From: Owenia fusiformis
Taxonomy: Eukaryota; Annelida; Polychaeta; Sabellida; Oweniidae
Assembly (NCBI GenBank): GCA_903813345.2
Contig: CAIIXF020000001.1
Coordinates: forward strand, 46,269,885 to 46,333,884
DNA length: 64,000 nt
Reading direction: 5' to 3'
Shown: one piece after another, positions 2,059 through 53,200 of the stretch
How positions within the stretch are numbered: the first letter of the stretch is position 1
Layout of the letters: every line of letters begins with the position of its first letter
Position numbers and translations under genes: made by a program
The notes under the pieces: model-generated
The model's input: the letters and a program-made list of their open reading frames with translations, nothing else
What the model was told of the DNA's origin: nothing
The model's database searches: none

Positions 2059-2217
2059 TAATTTCTATGTCATCACCTTGAACTATCAAGGATCAGTATT
2101 GGGATTCATAACAATTGTTACACCTTTATAACTGGGTGGTGACTTTTTATATTTTGTTTATCGTGTATAATTGTGTTTTATTTAAGGTTGCTATGGTTAT
2201 TTACTATTTACTTGCAG

Positions 2218-2280
2218 TTCCGCCAAGAGTTCACAGACTTGTAGATGCTTTCTTCCTGAAACCTATACTCTGCTCACATT
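2218..2280 (+). CDS. PIK3R1: p85 exon a: start of first C1 domain
   Basis: Exon between acceptor TTTACTTGCAG and donor GTAAGT. It enters with two bases of a split codon and leaves with one (phase 1). It encodes the first C1 ligands: His at residue 5, 12 residues, Cys, two residues, and the first base of the next Cys codon. Pro sits at C1 position 11. The preceding exon is not visible in 1-2217. The next exon completes the Cys codon exactly, which supports the join across a 9.2 kb intron. Confidence 0.85.
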
Positions 2281-5200
2281 GTAAGTATATTTTAAAAATT
2301 ACTTTCATGATTTGAATCTTTTTTTTATTCCAAAATAATAGAAAATACAATTTTCCCCAAAGATTGGATAGTGGGGCTTAAAGGTCTGCCTGAGACTGCG
2401 GCATGAACACCTCATTCTTTTAATTTTTGTATATATGATTTAAATTTTTGATTTCATAGGTTGACTTGATTTGAATCTTGATACCCTGGGGTTCAAAGGC
2501 TACAGATAATTACACTGTAGATAAGGCTCTCTTACATAAATGTATTATCAAGCAATTGAAACTGGTATATTCCAGATATAAGCATTTTGGATTTCTGTGG
2601 TCAAAAGGTGGGTTTTGGATGATTGTATGACTTTTATTATCATTAGGATTCTGTAAGCAGTAAAGGTGGATTATTTCATGATTTTGTCATGTTAATAGCA
2701 TTTATATAATAACATTATACTTTTGGAATGGCTGATTTAATCTTTTGTGGCTACAATTTTGAAAATCAAAACAGAACATATGTTTTTTACATTGAAAAAT
2801 ATTGCCTTCTATGTTTAGAAATATAGTTAAGACTATAAAATGCACCTATAGCATGTTGTTCAATTCAAATATATACTTAAGAAAGGCGGAGGGAAATTAG
2901 TGCAACAGATTTCGGATAGTCATATGTTAGATTTTGGCTATTCTCTGAGGATTTAAACGGGTGCATATTTTAGATCAATGCATTACCTCCAGGAAAAGCA
3001 CTCATAGAGATGATAAAATATTTTCGACTCTGAGACCGGGGAGGTGCAAACAATCCACCCACATGTTTTTTCTGAAATGTTGTTCTGATTTTCAACCCCT
3101 TCCACCCCTGCTTTTTAATTTTTGTTGCATCATTATGTTGTGTTTTGACACACAGTTAACCACTTTTAAGGAATAGGTAATTCCTACAGGGGTTTTAAAG
3201 ATATCCATTATGGGTGACCAAAATTAGCTGAAAGCAATGGATCGCGTGAGTTTTCCCTATGGGAAAATAACATGGGAAATGTTGTTTTCCACTTTATCTA
3301 AAAGGAATCACTTATTCCTTTAAAGGGGTTAATTGTTTTTCAAAACGCAATATATTTATGCAAGAAAAAATGTAAAAACCGGAGTGGAAGGGGTTGAAAA
3401 TCAGGAAAACACTTCAGGAAAAAACATGTTGGTGGGTTGTTTGCATCTACCCTGTCTCAAGGTCGAAATTATTTTATCTTTAGAAGTGCTTTCCCTGGAG
3501 GTAATGCATTGATCTAACATATGCACCTGTTTAAATCCTCAGAGAATAGCCAAAATCTAACTGTCCGAAATCTGTTGCGCTAATTTCCCTCCTACTTTGT
3601 CAACTCTATATGGAAGTTATCTTTTTACCATATACATGTGTACATCGTATTTTGTTAGAGCACCAGACAAAGAATAATATAGATCATATTTAGAAAAGAT
3701 GTAATGATTCTAGATAATTAAAAAAAGAAACACCTGATTTATCTATATCTCAAATATATCTGTTTATCAACCCTTCAACAATGGATGATGTAAGGCGTCT
3801 AGAGAATCATAATTCTGGAGCACGTTTGAGACGAATGTACTCTATTGTCTGGTCAGCAGCTACCCTTTATTCAACTTTATCTCACTCTGCATATTACTGA
3901 TAAACCTTTGAACTCATTCAGCCAGTCAGATCATGCTATTTTAAAGATGAGATTTGATGGATGTAAACGTAGGATGAGTCTGCAGTGCTATCTAATAGGT
4001 TCATTTAGCAAACTGTAAAATGATGACCCTTTGTGAGAGGATAGTAATCTTATTGGAGAGCTCAGGGTTGTCAGTAGTGTTAATATAGCTGGTAAGTGCT
4101 GCCACACATTCAATGACTAACAAGGCTATTGATAGAGCAGATATAGCTGAAAGGAAATTAAAAGAAATGCTTTTCACTTATTTATTAAAGTACTGGTATG
4201 TAGAGTCCAAGGTTTCAGTGAACTCTGCTTAACCTTATGCAGAAGAATAATTAATCATCCATGGTCAGTTTTATTGGATTGAACATTACATTCAATAATA
4301 CTTCTATGTGGCCTTTATTTATTGCTGGCTTTCAATGAATGATATGTGTCTTAATAAGGGAGCAATTGTTTCGATCTTTATTAGATCTGACTGAACCACA
4401 TTAGCACTTGAAGGGATGTAAAGCAAAGGACGGGTGACATTATAGATGATGAAATCCAATGCACTTCATTTTGATTTTATTCATTGATACCTTTTTGTTG
4501 CAACCCTAAGCTAATGCATTGGGATGAGAAGAGGAGGAAAACAATCCCATCAATCCCCAAATGTATATATTTTATGATGATTTATAATATGTATTATAAC
4601 AATATAACTTTTGATTTATATAAAAATGTAATTTATTTTGGGAATGTAATTTTGCTAATTTGGAAGTAGAGGGGAGGGGGGGTAATGCTCACCTTAAAAG
4701 TAAAAAGATTCAAGTTCGTATGGGGGGCATATCAATGCCACTTAAATGTGTATATGTTTTTACCATTAATACTAAAACCTATGGAAACCCATCCATTTTT
4801 AATGGAAGAGTGTAAATGAAATAAGATGTTGTTCCTGGGATATATGTAATGTCTATAATGGTCTGGTAGGCCTTGTATTGGTCCTATTTGACATAAACCA
4901 AAATGACAGCTCCACATTTAAGAATTGGTCAGTTTTATTTATCTCACTTCTTTACCATTAAGAAAAAACAGACACAGGAGTAAGAAAGATAAAAATAAAA
5001 AATCACTAATTTTAGCAAAGCTGTTTCGACAATTTTGTATATTTTGGCCTGGCCCCTTTACCAAAGTATATTTAATGGCAATTGGCATATCAGCTAGATA
5101 ATGTAAGAACTTGGGATAAAGGCTTCAATGATCTGGGAGAGTCACATCAGGATAACCTGGGCCATTTAGCTTACCCTGAATTCCCATCCACCAACTATGC

Positions 5201-8200
5201 CACACTCTGACTATTTCTGATGATTTTACAGTTTTGATCCATATAAGATCTTTAAAATCTCAAACGTAGCTTCAAAGGTATTTTATGGGAGTTTGAGTAT
5301 GAATTAAGGAATAAGGAATTATGATGTGATGAATTTTTACTTCATAGTCTGATTTGGTGATAGATTCTTATTGAGAATGTGCAGGTGAAATCAATTTCTG
5401 ACAAAGAGTATTTTAACCTGGACCATGTAGACCTTTCATCTTTACTTAGGCTACTGCCAAATACTGACCAGACTTTACCCTGGTGAGTTAAAACATGTGC
5501 ATATAGAGGAGCCCCTTAAGTTCCTCTAATTGATTGAGTTAAAGGTATTTTGGATATTTGCCTTTCATCAAGGTTGGCTGCCTTTACAGCTTATCAAAGT
5601 GATTCTTATAAGAAATTGGCATCAATGATTTGGCATGTCAGGAGTTCAGCATTACATTATGCAGAATATATCTGGAGAATTGCAACTGGGTGGAAATCCT
5701 GTTGTACATTTACATTCAGAGATCAAGCAAGATGAACATAAGTCAGGTACAGTTTGCTTTGAATATACAATATTAATGGAGTGCTTTAATCGAGTGCTTT
5801 ATCAAATTGTACTTTATGTTACATAATTCAGAATCAGGGAGCTATTCATTATTACTAAAAGAAGGAAACGAAACAGACTTGTACTCACAATTTATTTTTT
5901 GAAAATACAAGAAATTACAAATAATTCTGATACTTCCGTCTTTTGAGAGACTAAATCATTATATAATTTTACAACTTGTATTTCATTTAGAAGCAATGTC
6001 TTAATATTGCTGTATGTAAAGTTATTATCCTGATTTAGTCTTGACAGTAATAATTCTGCTCTAAGGATGATTAATCATGTTGATGATGGTTATTTTGATG
6101 ATTATGATGATGATGATGATAGTGGTGATAATATTCCTTGGCATTTTGATCATACTTCAAGGACAAGTTTTATAACCAATAACATTTTTAGAGATTTTAT
6201 ACATGTTTATTTATTATTTTAGTATTGAAATCCTCGAATGATTTCTACTTTAAAAGGGTGCAATTTCTAAATCTGATCTAATATATATATTAAGCAAATA
6301 AATTATAACAGCCTATGAATTGAATGATCAATAGCCTTTAAAGGCTTTGATACAAATCTTTGATGCAATAATACTAAAGCAAGAAAGAATTCTATTGTAA
6401 TACTAAAGCAAGAAAGAACAACAAATTCTTACAACTTCCAATAACTTAAGAAATACTGTTTAGACTGACTTCAATTTTTTTCAAAATCATCTACAAGTTT
6501 TCAAAAGTTCAAATCTGACTTTTATATTTAAGATTTGACCTTCAATGACCTTTTCAAGGTCAAAAAAGGTTAAAAAGGTCAAAAGAATGGTCTTTTTTCA
6601 ACTTGCTTCAAATTGACCAATTTTTTTTTTAAATCATCTAGAAGTTATCATTAGTTCAAATCTGACTTTAGATTTGAGATTTGACCTCCCAACAACCTTC
6701 TCAAGGTCAAAAAAGGTCAAAAAGGTATTTTTTCAATTTGCTTCAAATTGACCAATTTCTTTTTTCAAAATCTTCTACATGTTCTCAAAATTTCAAATCT
6801 GGCTATAGATTTGATCTTTAATGACATTCTCAAGGTCAAAAAAGATTTGACCTTCAATGACCTCAATGTTATAAAGGTCTTGCTTCAAATTGATCAATTT
6901 TGTTCTCAAAATCATCTACAGGTTCCTAGAAGTTCAAATCTGACTTTAGATTTGAGATTTCACATTCAATGACCTTCTCAAGGTCAAAAAGTTTTTTTTT
7001 CAACTTGCTGCAAATTTTCCAATTTATTTTTTCAAAATCATCTACAAGTTCCCAGAAATTCTAATCTTACTTAATATTGTGAGCAACTAGGTGGTGACAT
7101 TTTGTCATGTTAATGCCTTATTGTTATATCTTGTTTTAACATTCTTTAATAGATGGCAGTTATATTTTCCAACAGTTGCTCTTTGCCAAGAATGATGCTC
7201 TTTACAGATATCAGTTGTCAGAGACTTTTCAACTCTCACATTTTGTTTAGTTATGTTTCTATGGTTTCATGTTAAGATACGTAGGAATGACATAAGCTAA
7301 AATTATCAAATCTCATCTCTAATTTGTGATTAAGTCAATATGTATTCAGGTAGTCCGTTTTATGGACATCAAGGAAAAAGGATTACTGGATACATAATTG
7401 TGTATGAAAATGTTGTAAAAGGTAATATATTAGCAATAAAATCTGTTATCTTAATTTCTTCAAATGATTTCCCCATAATTCATCCTTTTTAGGAAAGGTT
7501 GTTGGCCGTACTCTTTCTATTAATAGGTTGATGAGTATAATGACATTGGAATTGCCTAACATCTAAGAGTACAACAATATTTCTACCTCAGTAATTTATT
7601 CATATTAAACATCTGAACCAGTCAGGTTACCTTGTGTTCAAGGGCACTAACCTCTAACTCAGATTAATTACTTTGGCATTGAATCATAAATATGACTGCT
7701 CGAGAAAGATGCTCAATTCAAAATGGCTGCTATTTTCATGAAAAATGCAATTTTAAATAACTTAAATACCAGAAGTTATAGGATTTGATGCAAATTTTAT
7801 GGGCTAATATCATGAGGACCTCTGCTCAAGAACAAATTTCAAGTGTGTTAATTCACAATAGCCAGCCTTTTCATCAAAAAAATGTAATGTTTGATATATT
7901 AAACCCTGTTTACACCATCTTCATTCATTCAGACATTTGCAACAGTCATACCCCTTAAATCATGGATATTTAATGAATGGATGTCCCTTTAAATCCAGGT
8001 AGATATTTCTAATTTATTCCATAATATTACTGTTTTCCCAGGGAAATATGAAGGAATAAAAATCGTATTGAATCGTATTACATGAAAAAATCGTATTGTC
8101 CCCGGGAAAAAAATCGTATTGGAGCGTATCACATGAAAAAAATCGTATTGTCCCCGGGAAAAAAATCGTATTGGAACGTACTAACCTATTTTTGGTTTTC

Positions 8201-11200
8201 CTGTTATTTTTAACCTTAGCTAATTGATAAAAGCTTTTTCAAAATGTAACATTTTAGAGGAATGTATTATGGAATAAATAGGTTATTTCTGGTCGGGATT
8301 GAATATGGGTTTCATTCCTCGGAAAATATGATATTGACCTTGGAAAATATGATATTGACACTCGGTAAATAACCTATATATATTGTGTCAGGATATTCAC
8401 TTCTGAAGTCAATGAACTTAAAATTCTGCATCAATAATTTAAACAAAGATCATGATTAACATGCAATATAATACAAAATGCTGCTTTTTATAGTCTATCC
8501 ATGAAAAAATGTTGCCATGGTAATTAAGTGCCTGGAACTCCAGGTCAGTCACCTTTTTAGATTTAATTATTCTCCCATTTGTGACTTAACATAAAATGCA
8601 TATAAGTTAGCAGCATTTAAGTTAGCAAATCTTACAACAGGATAAACATATTTTCTGAGAAAACAGTACCTTTTGAAGCAAGACTATTGCTACGTGTGTT
8701 GAATTGTAATACCCAGCAACTGAATAAATACTAATTTCAATTTAAGCTTAAAATACCATAAATAATAGATTGGCCTTCAATACGGAGCACCAGCTGCTGT
8801 TTACAAAGAGTAATGAACTTTAAAATTCAAGTTCAATGCTGATCATAAAATAAAGATGAACTTTTACATGTAGGTTTGAAAACATCATATACCAAAAAGC
8901 ATGCTTTAAATTAACCCTCTAGGGACTTTGTAACTTGTGTTAGTTTGAAGATATTTATATTAGAGAGATTTTAGTATAGAATCCAGGAGGAAGAAAATAT
9001 GCATTTCAGGTTAATGACTCAATTGTCTCAAGCTATTGTTATACCTGAGTTTAGCTAGGTTATAACATGTTAAAATTTATTTTTATCACCAAAACATAGG
9101 TAGAAGCATATTATACAAGAAAGCAATAACAAAACATATTTAGATTTTATTGTATTTTTCACTATCTCAAATATATTTTTCATGGTCTTAAATGTGAAAT
9201 AAAAGTTAGTTGAAAACAGAAAATACTGATGTTTTTCTACATATTCTGTTACATCAAGAAATTATGACTGATTTAAAAAGTAGAGTTTAAGCAAGTGGTG
9301 GCAACATTTTACAAGTGATTTCCTGCATGCATTACAGTATAATTCACAATCCTAAATAAACATATGTATGCCAATGAAAGTATGTATACTGTATGAATTG
9401 TAATGTCATAAGAGGGAAGGTTAAATAACGCAAATGCGAGTAGGTAGTTACCAGTTTCACCACCAGGTGGCTTGCTCGGGTCAGATAGCATGGCGGGTAT
9501 AGTAGAAAGTTCCCTTTAACTTAAATTACATCTGTTTTGGTGGTTCAATTTTCATATAGCCCTAATGTATGGAATAGTTATGCAAATTAAAGTATGTCCA
9601 GTAAAAGAAAATGTTATATGTCCAATACAAGAAAAGATATTTCACTTTTTGTGATTTTGTAATATGGGGTCTATGGGGAATCAACCCGAACAAGAAGTCA
9701 CATTTTCAAAAAATATTAAATTTTTAAAGTTGATAAACAATTTTCGAAACCATATTATAGTATTTTTACATGTAGATTTCAAATATGACATCACTTTGAC
9801 TGAATTTTGAATATTTAATGATGTAAATCAAGATCATTTCTACTCGCATCTAGTTTATTGAGAGATCAAACTGTATCATATTCAGTAATAAAACCTGTAA
9901 GTTATGTTTGCCTTACAGTCTCTGTATGGCATGTCCCAGTTTTTATGTCACCACCAAAAAGTGGTGACATATTGTTGTGGTCTCTATTTTTTTTGACGGT
10001 GGTTGGCGGTCGGCGTCTGTAACAAATTCTTACAACTTCAAATAATTTAACAAATATTGTATAAACTGACTTCAATTGTTTTTCAAAATCATCGACATGT
10101 TTTCAGAAGTTCAAATTTGACTTTATATTTAAGATTTGACCTTCAATAACCCTTCAAAAAAGGTAAAAAAGTATCAACTTGCTTCAAATTGACCAATTTC
10201 TTTTCAAAATCATCTATAAGTTATCGGAAGTTCAAATCTGACTCAAGATTTGAGCTTTGACCTTCAAAGACCTTCTTAAGGTCAAAAAGGCCTTTTTTCA
10301 ACTTGCTTCAAACTGACCAATATTTTTTTTCCAAATCATCTACAAGCTCTCAACAGTATAAGTCTGACTCTAGATCTGACCTTCAATGACATTCTCAGGG
10401 TCAAAATAGATTTAACCTTTAATGACCTTCAAGGTCAAAAAGGTATTTTTTCGTCTTGCTCCAATTAGGTGGTGACATTTTGTCATGGCTTGTTTACAAG
10501 CTATAGTCACCAGACTTGCAACACAATTGCCATACAGTTCACGAGCGATTACTTTGCCATCGCAAGTGTGACTGAGGCATTAGAAGATTCCCACTTGCTG
10601 ATGTTTTATTCAACATTTACATTACTGCCCCCAGAATTCTGTGTTTGAAGAGCACAGACAGAATTTGCCTTTGCCCGCGGAATTGCAGAATCAACTATTT
10701 TGTTCAATCTCCGTAAAATTCTCAGCGGAATCGATATATTTTTCAAAAGTTTAAATGGTGTTGCCTGTAACAATTTGACATGGTTTCAGTCAAATCCCTT
10801 GTAGAAATAACCCAAAAATGCGAAGTGAAAATTTTAAACTTCATCTTTTGATTTCTGTCGCTAGATGGCAGCATGTATTGAGTAGTGACGTAGTGACTGA
10901 CTTCGAACTATCACGAAATTTTCCTATTTGTATTATATCTATCACAATATTTTCTAGAGATGTCACGGAACAAAAAAAATCAGAATGGTTCGGTACGGAA
11001 CATTTTGCTTCGGAATGAAACAATTTCGGAATGGTTGGAACAGAGTGACTGTGTGTATTAAAGTAATTTGATCATCTAGGTCTATTTGGTAGCGAAAAGC
11101 TCTTCAAAACTATTCAAAGAGAAGGAGTAAAAAGAACGAACCTCTTTTGGTACAAAATATTAAAAGAAAAATGCTGTTCTGTGGAGATTCAAGGGCCAGA

Positions 11201-14200
11201 AGTTGTGAAAGGGTAAAATGTTCTTGTTCCGGAACCGAACCGAAATTTTTAATTTTTGTTCCGTGTTCTGTTCCGAGGGCATAATTCCGCAGATCGGATA
11301 TCCGTGACACCTCTAATATTTTCCATGGAATTTCTGCAGAATTATCCTCTTCCCCTTGCAGAATTCACTAATTTCACTTGCAGAATTTAGCATTTTAACT
11401 TGCAGAAACCTGGGGGGAGTGATACATGTTAAAAAGTGTTCTACTTACAGAGGTGTTCTACTTGATATATTCACTTCAATTCTTTCCTGTGTATTTCCAG
11501 GCAACGACTACATTTGGGGAACTGGAAAAGTGGGAATGAAGTGCCAAGGTAAAGCTAAGCATTTTAAAAATTCAGTGAACCATAAAGTAATATTATTTTT
11601 CTCAACAGGGTGACTTATTCTTTTTAGATCTGCTCTGTGTTGACTGTGATGATAATTTTGTAGAAATCCTGAGTTTACAAATTGAAATAAAAAAATAAAA
11701 AATGCAGGAATAAATTGCCAAAATGTATCTTTGAAAGTAACTCACAAAGAACGTCAAATAATCCTACAGATTTATGATATTGAAGAAACACTGATTACAT
11801 TTCCATTTTTTATTGCACTTTGAAAAAGTGCTATATTGCTGTTGTCTTGTTTGTTCTCCAGAAATGCTTCATGGTTTGTTTTGTTTTACTCCAGGATGTG
11901 GACGATGCTTTCATGAGAGGTGTGGAAAATTAGTTGCCAAAGAAACCTGTAGAAAAATGGATAGTGCTTCTAGTCCTAAAAGTGAAACCCTTGACACATC
12001 AAAGGTAAGAGTTGAAGTATAATTGTCGAAATTATTATCCCACTAAATGAAGTTCGAGGGGGATATAGAGAAACCATCTGGTCATCAGTCCGTTTGTCTG
12101 TTCGTCCGTGTTTCTGGGCGATAACTCAAATACTGGTTGATGAATATAATACAAATTTTATAGGCTTATACCTTATGGATGTAGGTCGTAGGACCTCTGC
12201 TAGAGGACATATTCGGTTCAAATTTTATATGCTGATTTTATATGTCTGCTTGAGAAAGAATTTTCAAGATGGCAGCCGAATTTCAAAATGGGCGCCATAT
12301 TATTATAAAAGAATGTAAACATTGATAACTCAAATACCAGTTGACGGAGTTGGTTCAAATTTTATATGCTGATGCCTAGGGGCAATGCTCTGTTAAAGAA
12401 GAAATTTTCAAGATGGCTGCTATTTATCAAAACATGTTTTGTTAGGTGGGATTTGCTACTCCTTGGAGTTGCTGTTTTGTAGTTGGTTTATTTGAAATAA
12501 AAAAACTTTATATTTAAAGCCCAATTTAGCCCAATAGGTACACACTAAAATTTATATTTAAAGCACATTTTGCCTAATTTCAAATGAATTAAAACAAAAA
12601 ACATCATCTGTGTAGGTTTTAATTTCAAAATATTTGTGATCAGAAACAATTCTTTTTTGGCCTTACTAGAAATCTCATCCTTGAAAGATATGATTGATAC
12701 AATGTAACCAAGTACAGTGACATCAGTATAGAATATCAATAGAGGACATTGAAGTTAATGTCCATTTATTAGTCTCAGGAGTCTATTTAATGTTGCCTAA
12801 TGTTGTATGGCACCATATGATTGTGTAAGGTGATATAACTTAGAACTAATGCTCTAGAATTGATGGCTATTGGAAATTATATCCTGCCTTGAAGTGGCAA
12901 TTTACAAAGCCACAATACACACTGTTTCACTCCCTCCTACACATTTTCTGATATCAAATGCTTATTTTGGTTCATTTTGGTATTTTAGAATATTTTTGTG
13001 GAATACTATCTATCATTTCCGTATTCCAGTTAAACAACAATGGAAGAAAAACAATGGCAGTTTTTTTTCACCCAGAAATGCTGGTTATTAATCAATAGAA
13101 ATGGATCTCTTGAAACATTTTTCAAATATTAAGGCCTATTTTTCCAAACAGGCACCTTCCGAAAATATGAAGTCTGTTATTGAGAAAAAGCCTCTAAGTA
13201 GTCCCAGATCAACTAGAATATATTTTATAAAATGAGTTAACCCAATTTTTATCATCAAATATCAACATTTCTTTTTCAAACAATGTTTCAGAATCTAGAA
13301 TATTTTCTATCTTTTAGTCCACCATATATATTTAATAGAGTTGAAATTCTGGTCATTCTAAAATCAATGCCTTTCAATATTTATTTTTATCAGCCGGTCA
13401 TACATGTGCCTAGTTGTTGCTCATCTCATCCTTTACAATAGTGCAACATTGAATATTGATCGCCAGCCAGCAGTATAAGTGCATCCTAATAAAATGGCTA
13501 ACAAGTGTAAGGTCATTGATACTTCTCGTGGCTGAATAATCATCATATATCTTCATTGATGAGAGGAAGAACCCTGGATAATTACAAGATATTTCATTCT
13601 CTGAGACTGGAAGGTAATACCTCATTTTTTATTATTATTTTTCCAAGGTGTATTGCCTATAACCCAAAATCTGTCAATGCCTGCAGGCAAGGCTTTTCCC
13701 ATGAGTTTTCAATTCAATTTGTTTATTTCATAAAGTACATATACTATGACATTGAATGGGTGGGTGATACAAGGATTTGTGTATATTCCAAAAGGTGGCA
13801 TGAATGATATACAAAGTATGTTGGAGTGTAATTACTCATCATTTTTCAAAGGACTTCATTTATGCTTAAATTCATGGAAATAAGTGAAATACCCTTTGAC
13901 CAAGGATGGTAATTACAGGGATCTGCTATTACATGCCCTCAACTGAAGAAATATAATGAGTGCCATTAGATTGCCCCTGAATAGAGCTGATTGGTTTATA
14001 TACTGCAGGCCTCCTAGACTTCCAACAACGCGAACATCAGTTCTGATACCGCGAACTACGTTCCTTGCACTCGAACCACGAATCTCATATCGCGAACGTG
14101 AAATCTTATGTCGCGCACCACCATTTCTTTGTTTCCGAACATATTTCTTGTACCTCGCACAGAGATCCGTTACCGCGAACAATTTGTACATAATACATCC

Positions 14201-17200
14201 GGGTGCTTGGGATTCCAAGTTACATGTATATACCAATATGCAACGAAGTGAAACAAGGAAACGAAATTCAGTTTCTCCTCCGCTTTCGCCAGACTTTCGT
14301 TCCTTTGAAAAGCATGCGCAATATTAACATCCACGCCCCGAGTTGGCAGGGCTTTAAATGATATGTATATCACACGCTTGCACCGATGATCATGTTCCCG
14401 ACATCCATTTTTGTGACTCATGTGGATGGCAGAGAGACTCAGCTGATTTCAGGTAGATCTACCGTTTTTGTATAGTTAATTTTTTTTCTTACACTGGTTT
14501 AGGTGCCATGGTAGTTAACAGGAAATGACAAAACAGGAAGTGACAAAACCATGCTGGATTTCAAACGTTTTTTGAACCAAGATATCAGAGTTTTGCTTTG
14601 ACCTCCAGTCAGTTTAACTAGTTCCACATACCATTTACATGACCATGATCACAATGACCATGGTCAGATTGACCCTAGACATGATGAAATTAATTCTTCA
14701 GCCCTCTGAAATTTGTGACTGAAAAATAGATAAAAATAGAGCTTAGGAAAGGTCACTGAACAGAATCTCTTGCATTTTTCAGAAAATGTGCCTAATATAT
14801 TGCTCTCAGTGATACAATCTTGGGAAATTTGATATCATTCGTTGAAAAAGAAAAAAATGAAAAAACTGAATTGAAAAGCGATATTTTTTCCTTTTTAGTA
14901 TGACCGCCATTTTTTCAGACAAGTTTCTGAAATTTTAAAGATTGTATCATTTAGAGCAATATATTGGGCACATTTTCTGAAAAATTCAAAAGATCCTGTG
15001 CATTGACCTTTCCTATGCTCCTACTTAAAGCTATTTACATTGACCTTTTCAGAGGGCTGAAAAAGGTATTTCATCATGTCTAGTAGGGTCATTCTGACCA
15101 TGGTCAGTGTGATCCTGGTCACACTGCATCATGCGACCTTAAACAACAAGGTTTACTTTTATACAGTACACCTACATTGTATTCATCAGTTATATTCTGT
15201 GTAGATGCACTGGCCTGCCCCTCCCTCTGAGATGGGCCCAGAAAAAAGGGTCCGACATTTTAGCGCTCCACATGTCTTGGGTCAGATATCGTCCTGGTTG
15301 CTGAAGTAAGGAATTTTTGGGGAACATGGGGCAAAACGGCCCTCATAATAATTAGATCCGTGCAGAGGTTTTTCTAATCTGTCAATCATCGCGAACTTTC
15401 ATGTTCCATCTTATGAAGGGATTATATTTCACATTTTCTGTGATTTTTCAGAGTGTTCGAAAATAATGTTGAGAGTAGGGCAAAATGGCCCATGGGTGGG
15501 GCAGAACAGCCCACAATTAAAGCTTCAGCTTTAAAACCAAGATTAATTTACTACATGACTCGTCAACACACATTTATCTCAGACGGTCAAAGATTAGACA
15601 GATAAAGTATTCTTAGCCCTTACCCTAAAATTACGATTTAGTAGTCATTTGATATGTTTTGAAACAAAAACCAAGTGTTATGATCTTTATCAGGATGATA
15701 GATTGTTATTTTCCTGTATGTAAACAGTTAATCCCACAAGCCGTAATGGGGGGGGGGGGGGCGCAACATTTAAGTTAAGTTTTCATGGCAAAGGGTAGCA
15801 TCTTCAAATTATCAGTAGCTGGAGCTACAGATATAGCACATCAAGTATTCTATAAAATCAGGAATATTGTACATAGGGTAACTCATTTCTTTATTATGAT
15901 GCAATCATCGGCTCAAATGGACAAAATTGGAAAAAGCTGTCACTAATTTGGCCATACGTGTTGTTACTCAAAAGTGCAGGTTTTTGTTTTTGTTATTACC
16001 CAGCCCTTTCACTGAAAATGTCAAGGTAGTCCCAATATTTTGTGTTTCCTAGGGCTTGAAAATACTGTTATCGTCAATGAGTGGATATTCATTCACATGC
16101 ATGAAAACTGGGAAAATATTTCTTCCGAATTCCATATGAAAACACCTCCTTGGAATTTTACTTATGCGTAATAATACGAACAAAATTACGGACTTTTTTT
16201 CGATCAGATGCTTGGTTCGCGGTAACGGATCTCTGTGCGCGGTATAAGAAATATGTTCGGAAACAAGGAAATGGTGGTGCGTGACATAAGATTTCACGTT
16301 CGCGATATGAGATTCGTGGTTCGAGTGCAAGGAACGTAGTTCGCGGTATCAGAACTGATGTTCGCGTTGTTGGAAGTCTAGGAGGCCTGTACTGCACTAA
16401 TCTGAAAGTTGAAGCCTTATCTATTTTAGAAGCAAAAACAAACTATTTGAAAGGGGAAGAATACTGCACTTGAGTTGATGAATTTTTATGTCTTGGCATC
16501 TTATATGCCCAGGAATATCTTGATGAGACAATTTTTGATTTATATAATGTCACAATTAACAATGTCTAGCACATGTCCTCATGCAAAGGATGAGTCTGGA
16601 TATATGCCCTTTTGGTCCCTCAGTTAAATGTATGTAAAATATGTTTTTTATAACTGTCCAAGTTATATTTACTTTTTCATGAGTTTTGATGCATACATGT
16701 AATTAACCCCCTGCTGAGAGTCAAAATAAGTATCCTTAACGGAAAAAAATGTCTAGTCATTATCATAGAAAAAACACCAATGGCAACATGTATGACATAT
16801 AACGTAGAAATAACTTAATGACCCATGAAGAATTAAAAAGAAAATCATATTTTTTAAATATATTTTAGGATTTAATTTTTTTCAAATGTTTGAATTTCCC
16901 GCCGGTTTAATTTGTAGGGGGAAAAACAAGATGGCTGCCATTTGGTGTTGGAAATTGAAACCAAAATGTTTTGCTCAGCATTAATTTTACTGAAATATGT
17001 ATAATTTCACCAAACTAATTGAAGTGTTAAATCTGGATGCTCAGTAACTTTGAGTGACTATAATCCCTGAATACCCAGATAAACACCAATTCACTTATCA
17101 AGAAACATCATGTTTTGGATGATATGTTTCAAACTTTTTGTATAAATTATTCATTTAATATAATATGCACTTGAATTTTTTTCAATTGTGGCATAGTGAT

Positions 17201-32200: not shown

Positions 32201-35200
32201 GAAATTACAAACTCACAGATGGATACTTTTCTGTATTTTCAAGACTTGAACAATTTGTAGAATATGACAGAACCCAGGAATTTTTATATTTCTCAATCTG
32301 AATTCAATTGATTTCAAAATATATAATTCTTTTATTTAATGAACATTAAACATGTATGAGCATAATCTTAAGGGATATTTAAAGTCTGGCATGAAAATGG
32401 AGAATGAAATATAATAGATTCAGCCAGTCTTGTAAAGATAGCTTTGTATTTTAAATATAATTGATACTCAATGATTTAAACATCTAGATTTACCGTAATT
32501 GAAATTGAAAGCAGCATTAAGCCCTGGATCCTACATTCTGCATGATAAATACAGAGGCTGTATGCAGTATTTAATAGTACAAACATAATTGCTTCATTTA
32601 GAATGTAGATTGGATTATTCGCATGCTTAACATACATTATTAATGTATGGTGATTAACCTTCATATGCAATACAGTTTGTAGCCACCTGTTGGGACCGAT
32701 TCGTACTAGATATCTCAGACGGTAAATATTGTACATGCCACTAAAGTAGAGCAGTGCGGTTAAAAGTAAATATATCACTGATAACCAACTTATGTTATCT
32801 TAAGTACCAAGTCCCATATCACGCTATACTATAAATCGTTTAGAAAATGTCAAGAAAAGTCTAAAGACGTGGGATGTGATCTGAATTAAAAAAAGTTCAG
32901 TTTGATTCAACTGTGTTCACATGTGAATGATGCAATAAAAATGTTTCATAGAGGACGAGAAAAAAATCAATAGCGAGAAAATATAATTCTAAGGCTGTCA
33001 AGGTTATTTAAGACTAAGGGGAGGGCTTCGATTGAACTACTGACTTTAGAAACGGCAGCTAACAATTTTATATCAGCTTTAGAAATGGTGACATTGTTAT
33101 AGTCTCCAACATTTTTGTGGATGGTGGTTAGTGTTTGGAGTTGGTTGTCTGTGTCTGTAACAAATGACATTGCATCTGTAACAAATGGCAGGTAGTGACA
33201 TTTTGCATGTTAATGCCTTGTTTCTACTCTACTCCCCCCCCCCCCTCCCTAGTTGGCTTCACTCATTTATTCGGATATCAATATCAACTTGTGGATATAT
33301 AAGATATCACTGAAGATCATATGATATCCTATATGCTTGTGAGGTATATTATGTTATTTGAGAAAGGTCTCAATACAGTAAAACCTGCATAGCTGTACTC
33401 CTAATCAGAACACCTCTCAATTTGGTTAGATTTTTATGTCATCGTAACGAGTTGTGACATATTGTTGTGGTCTGTTACTTTTTTGTAGATGGTGTTCAGT
33501 GGCTGGTGTTCAGCACTCAGTGTTTAACAAATGGCATGTGATGATATTGTGCATGTTAATGCCTTGTTATTATCTTTTCTTTCATAGACTTCCATGCTTA
33601 AAAATTTCAAAATATGAATACCTGCTAATCCAATCCCGTATGACTGGTCCCGTTGCATTCAGACTATACAGGTTTTACTGTATTTCAATTTTGATATCAA
33701 CAAGTATGATTTCAGATAGGATTTCTTACGCAGATGAATAAAAACTTCAAAAGACCTGATATGACTACTTACTCTTAGAAGTATGAAACTTCCTTATCAG
33801 ATACAGAAAATAACAACTGTACAAAAATAAACAAGAATCTTGATAATATCGGTCAATGAGCAATAGAAATATTAATGGTTGTAATTTTATGATTATGTGA
33901 AACACCGAAACAACAAAATAACACCGTTCACAACTTCTATCGCAAAAGTAAGATAAGACTAGAATATCAGATTGACACTTCCACGTGTCAAAACAACACT
34001 TCTTGTAGGTGTCCAAAACAATAACTCTTAAAAGGTGACAACTTTATTTTTAATCAGCACCATGAGGCAAAAACATGTATTTTTATTACTATTTACATGT
34101 AATTATTAATTAATTGTTAATATTAATATTTCAAAGATCCTGTTTACTATGAAATCATGCAATGAAATCGTGATCTGGGCTTTTGATTGGCACATTTATG
34201 GCAAATTGAGGTTCAATTTATCCTGTATCAATTTGTAAGAAGTGTTGAAGTATGTGTGTACTTTTCCTTCAGGAAGACCATTTATTATCTTGTGTATGAG
34301 TCAATATCTCAACATTACATATGAAGAACATATAATACCTAATGCCTCACCTAACAAATGGCAGGTGGTGACATTTTGCATGTTGGTGCCTCATAGAATT
34401 TTCATTGGAATTCTATGAGAAATATCTCAAAATCCAAAATATCTATTTTAAAACAATCATAAATAGAGCAATAATTAAGATTTTTAAGATATTTTTGTAT
34501 ATATTGAAAAATAGTGTTACATTAATTTTTTTGATTTAGTGTATCATTCTACTTATTACATGAGTATCTCTTGTCTGATTGAAATGAAAACATTCAAGGA
34601 TATATTAAAAATACTAGTATATATAAACGTTTTGTGAAATTTTGTGTTTTTTCAGCCTTTGGAACAATGGAGCGTCTCAAATGTAACTGAATGGATGGCT
34701 GCTTGCAATCTTTATCCGTACTCACATGTATTCAGCAAATATAGCATCACAGGCAGTCAATTACTCAATCTCAATGACGCACAACTGCAGGTAAGGACAA
34801 ATTTTAGTTAGAATATATGTCATAACATGTCAAATGATGACAATGGAACCTGAACAAAAATGACTAATCAGCTAGAACTACACTAAAGCAGCGGTTTCAC
34901 TAGAATTTCTCACAACAGGCTAAATAAATGAAACCAACAGGCAAAATTAATGGAAATCATGAATTTAACAGGGAAAAGTTGAAAAGTCCCTAAAAACAAC
35001 AGGAGATTTTGTGAAAACAACTGGGGAAAATCGCCTGTTGCCTGCTGCTATTGAAACCCCATGCTCTATCAAGAATTCATTACAGTACATGCTTTGGATA
35101 AAGATGAACTCTGATCATACAAAATGAGCCACGTGTAGAAACACATGATGTTTCAAGCAAGATCACCTGAACACTTATCTTTACATTCATGAATGATTAA

Positions 35201-41200: not shown

Positions 41201-44200
41201 AGTCCAGTGGTCGGCGTTTGTAACAAATGTCAGGTGGTGACATTTTACAAGTTAATGCCTTGTATAATTTTGATAAGGCATCATTAAACTTATGGAGGTT
41301 ATATCACCCGTGCCTGTGTTATGACATCTAATGACAGTGACAACAGAATACAATGCCTATTATGTAATAATAATAATTAGGTGATAAACATCACATTTAC
41401 TGGCAGTTGGAACTCTTCCCATTAAATGACAATATATATATGTGTTTCATAAAATCAGAAACAATGTTTTTAGAAGAACAGATAGTGAGTTTCAAGTTGT
41501 ACAATAATCTTCATGATATGAAAGATGATGCTGTTTAAATCTGAACTTATCCTAATTATTATATGCCATTTTTACTTACGACATTTGAAGTCTCAGGATA
41601 AATTTATTTTAAACTTGTCGTGATGTGATATTTATGTATTTCAGGATATGGAAATTCATGATGACTACGACAGGAAAGCGATAATGCTGTGTGTCGATGA
41701 ACTAAGTAAAAGACAATCAATGGTGAGTTTTCTTAGGACAATTTTAGCTTTTAATCGTGATAAAATGAGCCTTGTTATACTCGTATAACTCTTTATTGCT
41801 TTTGCATTCTGTTTTATGGATATGAAAATCTGTGATGCAGTTAAATTAACACTGTTGGTCAATTCCAAGACTTTGCAGTGTGCTCTTCAAGTTTTTTTCA
41901 TTAGATTTCTTTTTGTTCAGTATTTATAAGACCATGTTCTCATAACTTTGGGCAGACTGTAAATTATGCGTACAGTCATAAAAGCTGAATTCAGTTTTCT
42001 TTTTTAGACAACAGGTTTTTGTTGTTAGGTAGAACTAGTGGAATGAAATCATCAATTTTTGTTTACATAACAATTTTTGTTAGAGACATAATGGAAACAT
42101 TGAATTTGTTGCCAACATTTAAATGATATATTACTTTGCCTTGACAAGTATTTATACTGAAATCTCTATATTTGCCATGATACAAATAGGAGCACCTTGA
42201 TTTGAGCTTTTTCGGGCTTAAAATATCAGTTTTATTTCTGCTTGCCAATGCAGTTTGCAATTTCTAAAAAAAGGTTCTTGAAATTCTATAAGTGTTAAAT
42301 GATAAATGTTTGTAGAATTTCTCAAATTCATTGGCCTAGAACTTGAGTGCAGTTGATGGTTGCTAAGTTACCATAACCTATACTGCCAGATTTTTTAGAT
42401 CAAGGTCAGAAGATAAAAAAAACATCTGTCAAGAGTTTTCCCCAGAGCAAAACACCAGGTGCTATTTCAAAAATAAATTAAACTGAGCCAAATTTGAGTT
42501 TTCTCTTAAGATTTTACAGTTAATTGTATAGTGTAAACTAGGTTAATTTGCAGTGTTTTCTTTCAATCTATTTTTGCCTCTTTTATTGGTTGTTTTTATT
42601 ATTCTATGTTGATATCTGTCATGTCACTTTTCAAAACAAAATTTGACTTGTAGGCTTGTAAAAGACCCCTCTGGCATAGGGCGTTGTAATTGATACTTTT
42701 AAAATATTATGAAGATAAAAGTTGTCTTTAAAAACTTTTAAATGAACAATGGAAAGGTTAGATTATTTCTTTCATGTAGTTGGGAGAATTGTAGAATATA
42801 GAAAAACTTGTAAATCCAAACACCATGTGAATCCCACAATGTACACAGGGTCTTTAAATTCATGTTCATGGTTTATGTTTATGAATATACTAAAGCATAC
42901 ATAACATTGGAGAACATCATGACAACCCATGATGGTATCATAATGTTTTTATTGTGAATATCTAATTATCAGTATTAAAAGCCACCACTTATTGTTCAGA
43001 AAGATGATTAATTAATGAGATACAGATGAATATCAATATAAGATATCATTGTGCAAGTTCAAAAGTTTATATTTTTTGACAGTTTTGTAGATTTATAGAA
43101 TGCCCCCTAAGTCAATGTAGACAAATCGTTATAAGACGTTTCATTAAAGAGTCCCCTGATGACACTTTTTAGATTATATCGTGAGCCTATAGAATCACCA
43201 ATGCATCCGTCATCCATATTTTACTAATTTCTTTTAAATCATACATAATATAAATAATTCCCTTTTTACCATGTAAACTCGATGAATGGTGCCTTTTTCC
43301 AATTTGTGAGCTGTTTTGGCACAAAAGAATCACCTTGGGACTTAAAATCAGTGAACTAAATAGAAGGTGAATGCTCTCATACTGCTGGCATGGCATCATC
43401 ACATTCGGAATCACATTCATCATGTACTCAGCATGCATTCTGAATAAAGATTTATATTAATCCATACAGTGATATATATTTAATATATTTCATTGTCGAT
43501 TGTTGTAAATCAGTTAAGTGTCTCTATATTTCAAATCCGTTTCTGCCTGCTACCTTTTTGATATATAAATCTCCCAAAAGGATTAATCAACCCCAGTGCA
43601 TTCATTCTGTCAAACTCAATCAATGTCCAGTCGTAGTCCTTGAACTTACATGGATAAGTTCATTTGGGTTCCTGGAGACCGGCTAAACATTCTTTATAAC
43701 AGTAAATGTGACTATGCAATATCTCATAAAGTTATTATTTGTCAAGGTTGAGGACCAATCGGAATTAGTGAACATATAATGAGCTTACTGGGGTTAAAAT
43801 TTGGGTACCTCCCTCAATTGTATGAAAGGCTTTTAGGTGAAAAACCAGGTATTGCCCAATATCCTATAATAGACCAAAGAGTCCAGGAGATTTAAACAGT
43901 GAAGAAAAGAATCGAATGTTCTATTGAGCAACTAATGAAAGACTCTATTGATTCTATTAAATTCTGCTTGATGCAGTATGTATTTAGTCGATTGTATGTC
44001 GAACATAATCTATAAAGGTCATAGATTCTGCACCATGATTGGGTAGGAGTCTGTCTGCAAACAGAACTCTTCAGACAGAAGAAAGGTTGCACGAGTTGAG
44101 TGATAAGAAAGACTGGACGGAAGTATGAAACATTTATTAAACATGCCCAATATGCAGTACAGTATAAAATATTTCATTAACTAATTACTGGATAGAAAAG

Positions 44201-47200: not shown

Positions 47201-50200
47201 AGTTATTTTTGTTTGTGTACATGTTGTTGACAGTATATCCTGATCATCACCAATCAAGTTCTGTCTAGAAATGCAACATTAACCCTAAAGCACATTCCAG
47301 AATGTCAAGCCAGGATTATAACTCATCAATTGCATCATGTAGTCGATCCAGATACGAGATACAAAACACAAATACATACAATTAGAAATTCAATCCAAAT
47401 ATGAGACACTGACATTGCCCACACAGATTTGCCTTACATATTAAAATGATAATAATTGCCGTCACTTTGCTATGCTTCATGCATTATAATTGCATATGAT
47501 ATTATTAATTCTGTACATCATGCAGGTACATATCATTGATAAAGATGATGATAGCATGATTATATATGCTAATTCCCAGGGACTTAAATATACTCATATC
47601 CAATAGATGTATTAGCAAAAATTGAAGATACCACCTAGTTTATATCATTTTCTGTAGGTTCGAAAGGTCAATTTCAATCAACATTTAGATTAACAAAATA
47701 ATATGTTCTTTATCACCATTAGAAAAATGAAGAATGATCTATGATTTATCTTTTATTAAGAGCTAGAGGTAGCCATTGAGGTGTTTCTCTTAGGTAAGGT
47801 ATACATATCTAAAGTGATTTTTCGAGAAAAAAAACTTTCTAATCGTTTGATTAAGTTCCTATAAAAGTTAGTATTAGGACTTCTGCATTGTAGAAAATAG
47901 CTTAAGTTGATGAAAGAGGGATACAAAATTTCTGAGATGTGGCAATATTTTTACCTTTAATTATATCATGGGCTTTTAATAGATTACATGGAATTACCTT
48001 GTACTCAATTGTCTATATTATACTGTATCTAAATTGGTGTCAAGTAGAAAGCATATTCATGTTGAATATTTATATAGTATTTATATACATGTCACTTTAA
48101 TTGGTATTAGCCCCCTCGTTTTATATGTAACTCTACCAGGTATATTTTGCTTACAATATAGATATTAATAATAACCAGGAATTTATAGAATATTCATGTG
48201 TGATGTAAAAAGGCAGTAACAATTTTCAAGATTAGAAGAATTGTCTAAAATATGTCATTATCCATTTATGTAAATATTCAATTTTTGTGATTTGTGTTTT
48301 TCAGCAGTCTTACGGATCATCTTTACCTCGTGGAGCTGCTGGGGAAGGTAAGGATATGAATTGAAGAATAAGAGAAAAACCATACTCTTAATTTTACATT
48401 AAAATTTTGTTAGGTTTGTGGGTGGGATGGGAGAGAAGTCGTGTTAAGCAATTTTATTCATGAAAAAATGTGAAAATAAATAATTCATCTTTGTTGGTAA
48501 AATGATAAGGGTTATATCTTTTGGACTTATTGTGTCCAATTTCGTTGGTTGATGCAGTGGCTAAATTACATCAATTTCACTTATTAGTTTACATTCTGTC
48601 ATGGCCATTTATGAGGAGGACATTTTCCATTGGGACAGCTACTTCTGTTACATTTCCTTTGAAGAAAGCAATGGCTGAAACATTGATACCTATTGTTTTC
48701 CTATCGATTGAGTTCAGATTATATGAAATTGCACCTTTTTGTGATCAGTCACTATACTTCACATTCATTTTAAAATCAATTGATTGATGATGAAACATTC
48801 CAAGGTATCTAAACCTGTCATATTATTGAGTGAATTATTTTTCCAGCCAGGATATCCTAGTAATGTTTCATCCAGATCTAATTGAATTGCAATTCTGATG
48901 GCATAACTTAATACTGAAAATATACTCGGTCTATGTATGTTCTGAGAATGTTTTTATGGAAAATCATTCCACTGCAACATTAACATGGATGTTATTGTTA
49001 TGGAAAACCTAACCCATTTTTATTGAATATTTGCTGAATAGAAAAGTTCACCTAGTTTTCTTGGAGCTTTTCTTCATCGATCTGTAAAGTACTTATTAGT
49101 CTCACATGGTATAGAAATTTATCCCATGATTGTAAGGCTGAATATTGAATATCATGTGAAGATATAGCTGATATGAGGGTTAACATATTTTTCAACAAAT
49201 AGATTCCTTTTCATGTGTTTTATTGGATTTCACAGAAACACGAGCAAAATTCCTCAAAACAGGTCTATGTTAGTGAAACAACCAGAAAAAATGCCTCTTA
49301 GCTTTTGTTAATAAAACACATATACCCGTATATAGAATTTACTATTTGCTCTCTCAACTTCATGAAAGCATTTCTGCAATGCTTGGTATTTTGTATATAC
49401 TGTCTATTTTGTATATACTTGAGTATAGCTCAAAGAAAAATAAGTCAATCTTAATGATTCTAGGCTGATCTGTCTGACAAATTAGGCAGATCCTTTTGGT
49501 GTTGAGCCAAATGGCAGATAAAAATAACTCATTTTGGCTATATTTAGCATTGTTAAATATTGGCTCTTTCTTTTAAACCAACATCTCTAAAGCATTCTTT
49601 GAAATCTCAACTTATCTAAATAGGCAATTTCCTGAACCCCAGATTTCAAGCTGCATTCTGGAAATTTCTCTGCTCAAGAGGTATACTGGTGCATTCCACT
49701 TATGACTTACCACCATTATGTTCACCTGGCCTTAAGAAATTTGTTTCAATTGGGGCTATTGTTCATGTATATGTGTTATATAAAGCTATGTAAATTCCTC
49801 TTTGACTGTGGGATTTGTGGTTGAAAGGGCTGTTTCTGTAACCACAAAGTACTATAGGTGTCAAATATTGATATTGGCCATAGACTGAGTATTAGAGTGC
49901 AACCTTGAGGCCCAGTCATAGAGAGCATGCACACTGTCTACAGTCTAATATTATAATACAAATCAATATAGACCCTAAGAATTATCCAGCTTGTCAAGCA
50001 ATTTTCAAGGTTCTTTGATGGATAAGTACAGTAAGACCTATTTAAAGTACGTAAAAACTTTCTAAAGTATTGTAAAACCTATTTAAAGTCAGTAAAACCT
50101 ATCCAAAGAATCGTAAAATCTATGTTAAGTACATTAAAACCTTTCTAAAGTGCGGTCTAAAACTGGGACTGGCCAATCAGGTTGGCAAGAAAAAATGTTC

Positions 50201-53200
50201 AAGTGTATTCCCAACAAAAGTATGATAATTGTATTTATTATTTCCCTGTAGTGATAATCAGTTTGTGATTGGTCAGTCATGTACCATGTGACTAAAAATA
50301 CCACAAGGTATTCCATCCATGTATAAGTCATCGATGTGAAAGGTGTATTTTAAAATAAATAAATACAGATATTCAATGAATGTGACATCACATGTCTAGG
50401 CTATTGAAAACATATGGCATTATTTATCGAATTTTCATTTTTTGAGACACTATATAGTTAATTAATGAATATTGTTCAACTGTAATATGTATTTCTTCTT
50501 TTCTACTCAGATTTTGATATACAAGTAAATGAGTGAAATAATAAAACAAATATTGAATTCAGTTTCGTGCAATACCCGTATATATTTCTGGGGGATGTAT
50601 TCCACTTGCCCTTCGGGCTGCCTGGAATACACCCTCAGAAATATATACAGGTATTACACTCAACATCACTCAATATTTGTATTGTATTCACTCCATATAT
50701 GAAATTGTGTATTCAATCATTACATGTATGATATTATGTATTTCTTACATATTAATACATGTGTATTCCAAATGAAAATATGATATTGTATATATTCACT
50801 ATATATATGAAATTGTGTATTCAGTCATTACATGCATGATATTGTGTATTCCAGCATGCTGTCCTGCAACAGACCACTCATTTGTAGAATACAGCTTCTC
50901 CTCCCTACAACAATGCCATCTATGTGAGAAATTCTTACTCGGCCTTATGCGCCAGGGTTATCAGTGTCAAGGTATGTTATATGCAGAAATTAATTATTTT
51001 TGATGTTCGTAATTTTTGTTACCATTAAATATTTATTACGTGATATTACTTTTTTATTGTCAATGGAAAGTCATGGAAACCAAAATCATTATTCAGAAAC
51101 TGAAATTACATGTTATACAAATATACTTTAAACATCAAACCCAAAATTACATTTTAAATGTCAAGTTTATCAATGGATTTACAATAATGAGTCGATGATG
51201 TACTTGTACAACATACTTGTAAGAAGATATTTTATCAATTTTTGCACTAATACAACAGTCAATGATGACCCCCCTAGAATGGATATACTCGTACATGTAC
51301 TTGATGTACTTTTAATGCCTACCATCGCCATAAAATCTAATCCATAAAATCCATAAAATTATTTTTATTTTGTTTAGATTGATAGAAATGATATTTGTTG
51401 TTTCTTGTATCCTATAATTGTTAGTTGTTACAGTACAAAAATCATTGATGTCATGTGACACATTATGAACATTTGAAAATAATAGAAATAAAATATGAAA
51501 TGTAAAATGAAGCTGTGGTCTATGGGAAAATTTATGTGCAAATAACATGTGAAATTGTTGAATCAGTAACTATATTAAAAATATTTTTAGAACACTTTAA
51601 ATAGCTATATTTTTGTAAAATAGTATGATATAATCCGGGAGCAATTACCAATAAGACAAACTGGGAAAATAGATTTAGAATTTAAATAACTTGCGTGATT
51701 TGATGATTTCAGAGTGTGGCTTGTGTTGTCACCGCCAGTGCTCAGCAGAGCAAGTCCCAGAATGCAGTCGTGAAAAAACAGAGAAGCTCAGACGGGACAG
51801 CTTAAGTTACAGTAAGTACAATCATTTATGATTCTGAAGTACTGTTTTATAAATTTTTTACAAAAAATTGGAAAATATCAGTTTTTTTTTTATTTATCAT
51901 TTTTATTTTACGAAAAATTACCTGAGTTACCATAAAAAATAACCTTTAATCTATTCACCATTTATATAGAGGATATCCTATGATTTATGAGTGATATGAT
52001 TTTTATCCACGAATGGATATGATATCTGCACGAGCGAGCGTAGCGAGAGAGTGTAGATATCAATATCCATGAGTGGATTAAAATCATATCACGAGTAAAT
52101 CATAGGATGTTCTTTTTATTCCATAGTTAAAGTCATCATCAGAATCGTCGAAAATTAAGTTATTTAATTCGAATTTCCAAACGATCCGGCGATGTTGACA
52201 CTTAGCCTCGTTTTGAGTCTGAAGTAGCAAAAATCCATAAACCATCGCATACGACGTCGTATGTCATGGCTAAAAAACCGTATGTTATGGTTAAGTGAAA
52301 ATCTGTCAAAAATATCATATTTTACCACTGATTACAAAAATACCGTTTTTATTTTCACATGTTATCCTATAAATATCATGCTAACTATGGAATAAAACTC
52401 AATATCTGGTTTGGCAGTTGGACATATCAATAATTATCCAGGTTACCTATCAATTCATCATTATTGATGTCTTAGCTTTGTTCAGTAATAACAATCAGGA
52501 ATTGTCTCAGTTATCAACAGTTGTGGAAGGATAAAGAACAAAGATTACAATTATAGATTTACATGTACATACAGTACATGTTGCTTTTAATTACTATTTA
52601 ATTCCTTCTTTAATGGATTTCCAGGTTCAATCTTTGGTATAACATTGGACCAGCAGTTCAGTGTTGAGGCGCAAAGTGCCCCTTCTGTTCTCATCAGATG
52701 TACCCAAGAGATAGAGGAGAGAGGGAAACAAAGTGGAGACGATCTTTTCAATGCTTATAAAGCCACAGCTTCTAGTGATAAGATCAACCAGTTGAAGAGT
52801 CTCTTCAATGAAGGTATGGTGTTCATATATAACTGTTTTTATTACTGGATTGTTTTACTCCAAGATTAAAACCATATCTCATATACTCCCTTCAGTAAGT
52901 GGACATTGAAATGATTTTCTCCCACTTTGATGGCACATGTTAATCATGTATTTAAGTCCTCTCTCATAAACCTAAGTATTCCTTATTCTGTAAAAAAGTC
53001 TAAAGGATCAATAGTATCACTAAATAGTATCATTAAATTAGTACGACATATACCATAATATTAAATTGATTTTTTTCACTATGCTGAAACATAATAATAT
53101 TTTACGAGGTGGCTCAACCTATAATACATTGTACTATACATGTACTATGTGTTTGGATTTTCATAATACAAAGACCAAACTATATATATTTTTGCATTAC

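Follow-up and report, generated by a model that had tools for sequence, protein, structure and literature searches.

Most work on p85 has used the vertebrate proteins p85alpha and p85beta (PIK3R1 and PIK3R2), which possess neither C1 nor SAM domains. A locus in the annelid Owenia fusiformis raises the question of whether a p85 adaptor of PI3K can carry both. The stretch of DNA analysed, referred to below as the window, comprises 64,000 nucleotides (G000:C1:46269885-46333884, + strand); 40 kb lying 5' of it were added, giving 104 kb in all, and genome-wide searches covered 498.3 Mb in 525 contigs. An earlier reading of this DNA, called here the original prediction, had placed an N-terminal C1-SAM-C1 module in one frame with the BH (RhoGAP homology), SH2, iSH2 and SH2 domains of p85. 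The shared frame was confirmed by a spliced model and by Pfam, and as read from the genome a single p85 gene does bear the module. The domain order of this gene is SH3–Pro–C1–SAM–C1–BH–Pro–nSH2–iSH2–cSH2, and p85alpha and p85beta share with it SH3, BH, nSH2, iSH2 and cSH2 in the same order. Since an SH3 exon stands ahead of C1-SAM-C1, the module is internal and not N-terminal.

Exon assembly from the genomic DNA yielded 18 coding exons, which lie in order on the + strand when the chosen regions are translated and which encode 941 amino acids in one open frame. All 17 introns are bounded by GT..AG and their phases are consistent, but the splice sites were picked to fit phase, so that this agreement is partly circular and is weaker evidence than it appears; phase had no part in the choice of the Pfam matches or of the p85 exons on either side. 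The junctions proposed originally (12004/34656, 41722/48305, 48347/50855 and 51811/52625) and the start at 2218 are identical to those of the spliced model, and the residue numbering given with them is 95 too low, the SH3 exon being outside the window. The alignment with p85alpha (478.4 bits) covers residues 6-94 and then 334-933, and the unmatched gap between these two pieces is C1-SAM-C1. The module is thus missing from the aligned p85alpha sequence, which agrees with the earlier statement that vertebrate p85 lacks C1 and SAM. In the spliced protein, Pfam C1_1 matches two stretches with a total of 67.9 bits (44.6 and 46.6 when taken singly; cut-off 26.5). SAM_2 scores 35.9 in the spliced protein and 42.2 alone (cut-off 20.5), with SAM_1 also above its cut-off, and RhoGAP scores 91.9 bits in the whole protein. 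Two stretches match SH2 above the cut-off, and between them lies iSH2 (PF16454) with 136.6 bits.

The SH3 exon (exon 1, window -4344..-4062, G000:C1:46265540-46265822, + strand) contains the start codon and is located 6.3 kb 5' of position 2218, beyond the window, which therefore cuts the gene. Its open frame begins MGEILFYIAEYPY and contains GWLFGKNQRTGSVGFFPGTYV, and it ends in phase 1, the phase required by exon 2. The top PDB match of this exon is the SH3 domain of p85alpha (E 5.9e-6), with p85beta second, and SH3_9 scores 35.0 on the exon alone (cut-off 30). Between SH3 and the first C1 domain (C1-1), proline motifs of the forms RxxPxxP and PxxPxR occur at residues 87 and 93. The frame of exon 2 stays open into the intron 5' of it and takes in an ATG there (window 2193-2217); an SH3-less transcript that initiates at this ATG is conceivable.

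The remaining exons are all on the + strand of the window and all belong to the spliced model. The first part of C1-1 (amino acids 95-115) is encoded by exon 2 (2218..2280), which follows a phase-1 intron and was also found with C1_1. Its middle is encoded by exon 3 (11501..11548), located with a search pattern of C1 spacing and phase, and its end, together with a linker, by exon 4 (11895..12004). Exon 3 is the sole stop-free candidate of its pattern within 2281-11894; in the 104 kb this pattern occurs twice on the + strand, where only 11501-11548 is C1-like, and not at all on the - strand. Beyond intron 4, which is 22.7 kb long, the SAM domain is divided between exon 5 (34656..34790, amino acids 169-213) and exon 6 (41645..41722, amino acids 214-239), both of which are bounded by phase-0 introns and matched by Pfam. 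Exon 7 (48305..48347) is a linker of 43 bases, and the second C1 domain (C1-2) begins in exon 8 (50855..50971), again with a Pfam match, and ends in exon 9 (51713..51811), with a phase-1 donor. BH occupies exons 10 (52625..52813), 11 (53203..53334) and 12 (54283..54490), all three recovered by alignment and the first also by Pfam. A second proline-rich stretch and the start of nSH2 are found in exon 13 (55117..55371), for which an alternative in-phase acceptor 9 bases upstream would begin the exon at 55108; the remainder of nSH2 is in exon 14 (55686..55866). The iSH2 profile matches exons 15 (56243..56487) and 16 (56848..57024), which hold the first and second parts of that domain. Exon 17 (57383..57634) contains the end of iSH2 and the start of cSH2 and, like exons 13 and 14, was supported by the p85alpha alignment. 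Exon 18 (58172..58382) encodes the remainder of cSH2 and the stop codon.

By its sequence features, this gene is a class IA PI3K regulatory subunit, a p85 orthologue, and the sole one found in this genome. An iSH2 domain lies between the two SH2 domains, SH3 and BH stand ahead of nSH2, the phosphotyrosine arginines of the SH2 domains are present and a p110 partner is encoded in the genome. The arginines occur in FLVRDAS at 569 (exon 13) and in FLIRKSK at 855 (exon 17). It had been suggested that the adaptor might act independently of receptor phosphotyrosine; the retention of both arginines speaks against this, and ordinary recruitment by phosphotyrosine should persist. In iSH2 the MNS motif of p85alpha is kept, and the Asp four residues ahead of its Asn is replaced by Ile; we take these positions to be p110 contacts. 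The two exon matches to iSH2 in the genome are both in the p85 gene and represent one iSH2 gene, although the genome has runs of N and weak matches may be missed, so that a second gene is possible. A search with the nSH2 exon gave 592 pattern matches in a collection of genome contigs and 79 in one of viral contigs, and no relative was confirmed in either. For PF02192, the p85-binding domain of p110, there are three matches at two loci, the two that lie 0.9 kb apart being counted as one locus. One iSH2 gene and two PF02192 loci correspond to the 1:2 ratio of class IA regulatory to catalytic subunits given for Mollusca and Annelida in the available text of a 2015 survey (Philippon et al. 2015, PMC4617754). 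With these numbers the cassette, if functional, would affect all of the class IA PI3K output in this genome.

The C1 domains bear on what the module might do. In each of them eight positions with zinc-ligand His or Cys are present by eye; the spacing to the last Cys, also judged by eye, is 8 residues in C1-1 and 7 in C1-2. The nearest structure to C1-1 is the first C1 of PKC-beta, and C1-2 is nearest to PKC-beta, RasGRP1 and Unc13 and then to PKC-delta, PKC-theta and the chimaerins. According to the accessible portion of PMC9110374, Pro241, Gly253, Gln257 and Gly258 (PKC-delta numbering) are strictly conserved in C1 domains that are sensitive to diacylglycerol. Aligned with PKC-beta, C1-1 possesses Val at the position of Gln257 and retains the Pro, both Gly residues and the Trp. 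In its own alignment, C1-2 has Leu at the position of Pro241 and retains Gly, Gln and Gly, so that its QG motif is present. Both domains thus depart from the four-residue pattern, each by one residue, which suggests that neither is a textbook diacylglycerol sensor and makes the canonical lipid sensing foreseen by the original prediction doubtful. By eye, the QG pair is present in 7 of the 8 other C1 5' halves that were read in the genome.

The solved structures nearest to the SAM domain are those of Aveugle and then DGK-delta, neurabin-1 and CNK2, all of which sit in proteins that are otherwise unrelated, and the genome elsewhere yielded one weak match as a SAM relative. SAM-driven self-association is plausible. 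We suppose that, as in vertebrates, p85 would bind p110 through iSH2 and that its two SH2 domains would bring it to receptor phosphotyrosine. More tentatively, SAM and SH3, with the nearby proline motifs, might gather several p85/p110 units at the membrane; alternatively, SAM might link these units there to another SAM protein. For the atypical C1 domains, docking onto acidic lipid or onto protein partners would be a likelier role than diacylglycerol sensing. Vertebrate p85alpha dimerises chiefly via SH3–PR1, and a BH-BH contact seen in crystals is weak and was unconfirmed by cross-linking, according to the available part of PMC7458397. In the literature that we found, C1 and SAM domains in a p85 adaptor are listed and their function is not studied. 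If the proposal is true, adaptor clustering would be an old component of PI3K control, since abandoned in the vertebrates or superseded there by SH3–proline dimers.

The BH domain is relevant to the history of the module. Within exon 10, a Tyr-Lys pair (AYK) is aligned to the Tyr-Arg of the chimaerins, the arginine of which we take to be the RhoGAP arginine finger; p85alpha likewise has Tyr-Arg at this point, in contrast to the Tyr-Lys of this gene. The substitution of Lys for Arg makes GTPase-activating protein (GAP) activity doubtful. As a query, BH alone scores 70.9 bits with n-chimaerin, 53-58 bits with several other RhoGAPs and up to 49.0 bits with p85alpha, and C1-2 and BH together align as a single stretch with n-chimaerin (119.8 bits) and beta2-chimaerin (108.1 bits). 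The chimaerins have the layout SH2-C1-RhoGAP and, in contrast to this gene, are devoid of iSH2, SAM and SH3. Their closeness is not specific, in that RICS, ARHGAP15, ARHGAP35 and others also outscore p85alpha. Moreover, when the BH of p85alpha is used as the query its best matches outside p85alpha are p85beta and then, nearly level, myosin IXb (59.3), ARHGAP15 (57.7) and n-chimaerin (57.0), so that a chimaerin origin of BH is left as a suggestion. No chimaerin of Owenia itself was found with the C1-2 plus BH query, the matches of which outside the p85 gene include an Unc13-like C1 (by reading) and RhoGAP exons of other genes.

Additional C1 and SAM domains have already been reported in p85 proteins of non-vertebrates, and the Owenia gene is a well-formed case of a layout that, to judge from the available sources, has been little studied. 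In the part of the 2015 survey available, class IA regulatory subunits are recorded with C1 (Mollusca, Cnidaria and Ichthyosporea), with SAM (Mollusca, Arthropoda and Choanoflagellida), with an extra SH2 (Cnidaria and Ichthyosporea) and with SH3 (Choanoflagellida, and the p85alpha of fish) (PMC4617754). As in the present gene, the C1 and/or SAM domains of these subunits stand ahead of RhoGAP and the SH2 domains; unlike the present gene, none is described in that portion of the text as having two C1 domains around one SAM behind SH3 in one gene (PMC4617754). In CDD, the entries C1_PIK3R-like_rpt1 and rpt2 (cd20829 and cd20830) stand for a PIK3R-like family that carries two C1 domains and is uncharacterised.

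Four other explanations of these data may be considered, two of which concern the gene itself. If the C1-SAM-C1 exons formed a separate nested or tandem gene that never entered a p85 transcript, the long introns within and beside the module, such as the 22.7 kb of intron 4, would be understandable, and exon 9, in which unspliced read-through stops after six codons, could be a terminal exon. However, p85 exons flank the module on both sides and on the same strand, with a p85-type SH3 exon upstream and BH downstream; the junctions at both ends of the cassette (exon 1/2 and exon 9/10) run from phase 1 to phase 1, and C1 or SAM has been published in class IA regulatory subunits of other animals. 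A separate gene was set aside once the upstream SH3 exon had been found, and we regard it as very improbable. Exons 2-9 make up an internal cassette with a phase-1 intron at each end, and both this cassette (1-1) and the SAM exons 5 and 6 within it (0-0) could be skipped in frame; a junction of exon 1 with exon 10 would keep the frame open and give a vertebrate-like SH3-BH sequence. The main product might then be a vertebrate-like p85, with C1-SAM-C1 as a regulated insert. Such symmetry permits skipping and does not demonstrate it, and the intact domains suggest use of the cassette in some transcript, so that we consider this possibility unlikely, though less so than a separate gene.

The other two explanations concern the origin of the cassette and the function of its C1 domains. 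A 1-1 symmetric cassette is a common form among shuffled modules. Exon shuffling might have brought this one into the intron between SH3 and BH in one invertebrate lineage, in which case the vertebrate layout would be the older, and it would fit such a gain that the available text of PMC4617754 names no other lineage with the full set. On the other hand, that source places C1 at this position in Ichthyosporea, Cnidaria and Mollusca and SAM in Choanoflagellida, Arthropoda and Mollusca, and in our alignments C1-2 and BH match the C1-RhoGAP of chimaerins as one stretch. A gain in one lineage accordingly strikes us as distinctly unlikely. Nor do we think it at all probable that, after phospholipase C activation, PI3K is carried to the membrane by C1 domains that genuinely sense diacylglycerol: the eight zinc-ligand positions of each domain, Pro and Trp in C1-1 and QG in C1-2 are what such sensors would have, and the Val for Gln in C1-1 and the Leu for Pro in C1-2 are not. 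The original prediction had left undecided whether the arrangement was an ancestral layout lost in vertebrates or a lineage novelty. The published occurrences of C1 and SAM, as far as the survey could be drawn upon (PMC4617754), favour the former, and an ancestral layout with loss of the cassette in vertebrates is most likely, being the simplest reading of the sequence together with the published distribution. Loss of exons 2–9, a cassette with phase 1 at both ends, would have left the frame unbroken.

Several observations weigh against the favoured explanation, a p85 orthologue with an ancestral C1-SAM-C1 layout. The layout was read from the DNA of one genome, and the loss in vertebrates is based on published domain lists. 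As reported in the available part of the survey, the ichthyosporean and choanoflagellate proteins are devoid of the p110-binding domain, the one sequence from Ichthyosporea is perhaps artefactual, Cnidaria have C1 without SAM and Arthropoda SAM without C1, and no lineage is credited with the complete C1-SAM-C1 set (PMC4617754). In addition, the SH3 scores are low in two respects. SH3_9 on the full protein reaches 29.1, slightly below the cut-off of 30, and SH3_1 (PF00018) reaches 13.2, below its cut-off of 22.9. In keeping with the latter score, the 81 PF00018 matches that were listed for the genome all lie outside the p85 gene. Since PF00018 is the SH3 model named in the accessible text of the 2015 survey (PMC4617754), the SH3 domain may be under-recorded when the p85 proteins of invertebrates are surveyed.

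Taken as a whole, the data are probably best explained by a p85 orthologue that would be recruited by phosphotyrosine and clustered through SAM and SH3, with atypical C1 domains and an ancestral layout. A further-reaching proposal is that the p85 of the animal ancestor was SH3–C1–SAM–C1–BH–SH2–iSH2–SH2 and that vertebrate p85 is a reduced form of it, its BH being what remains of a C1–RhoGAP unit like that of the chimaerins; in any animal still possessing the cassette, class IA PI3K output would pass through a SAM-clustered adaptor. This we put forward tentatively, as somewhat easier to doubt than to accept.

The two C1 domains are 30% identical and have a phase-1 intron in common, with an additional intron at the CSHC motif in C1-1. 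This shared intron was not taken as evidence for tandem duplication of one C1, because the same intron is found in other C1 domains of the genome. There are 18 C1_1 matches outside the gene, and 13 of these, mostly half-domains and hence a chosen sample, were examined: eight have a readable 5' half, three have a 3' half that reads across the site, and two have neither. The same phase-1 donor is present in 7 of the 8 readable 5' halves, the exception being L022, and four of the five remaining matches, one of them on contig C10, span the site as one stretch and so are without the intron.

The long introns of the p85 gene contain repeated sequence. A GC-rich minisatellite at window positions 19844-21518 in intron 4 consists of units of about 21 bases (GTGGCCCCCAGAAGCTATACG), the orientation of which flips near 21.1 kb, so that it forms a large inverted array; open reading frames (ORFs) of a repeat that resembles it by eye are located about 21-22 kb upstream of the window. 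Also in intron 4, the ORFs at 13947-14324 (+) and 16161-16442 (-) encode a long, near-identical peptide in opposite orientation, and the pair of inverted repeats that they form may be a mobile element; the ORF at 13947-14324 gave no match in Pfam. In intron 5 an ORF of 155 amino acids (39155-39619) resembles by eye the C-terminal part of a non-LTR reverse transcriptase and is matched by no Pfam family above the cut-off. Finally, 16-17 kb 5' of the window (G000:C1, approximately 46252660-46253890), an ORF scores 32.0 bits with fibronectin type III (cut-off 25), and about 0.4 kb beyond it is another with an apparent transmembrane stretch, as judged by eye; together these probably belong to a neighbouring receptor gene.

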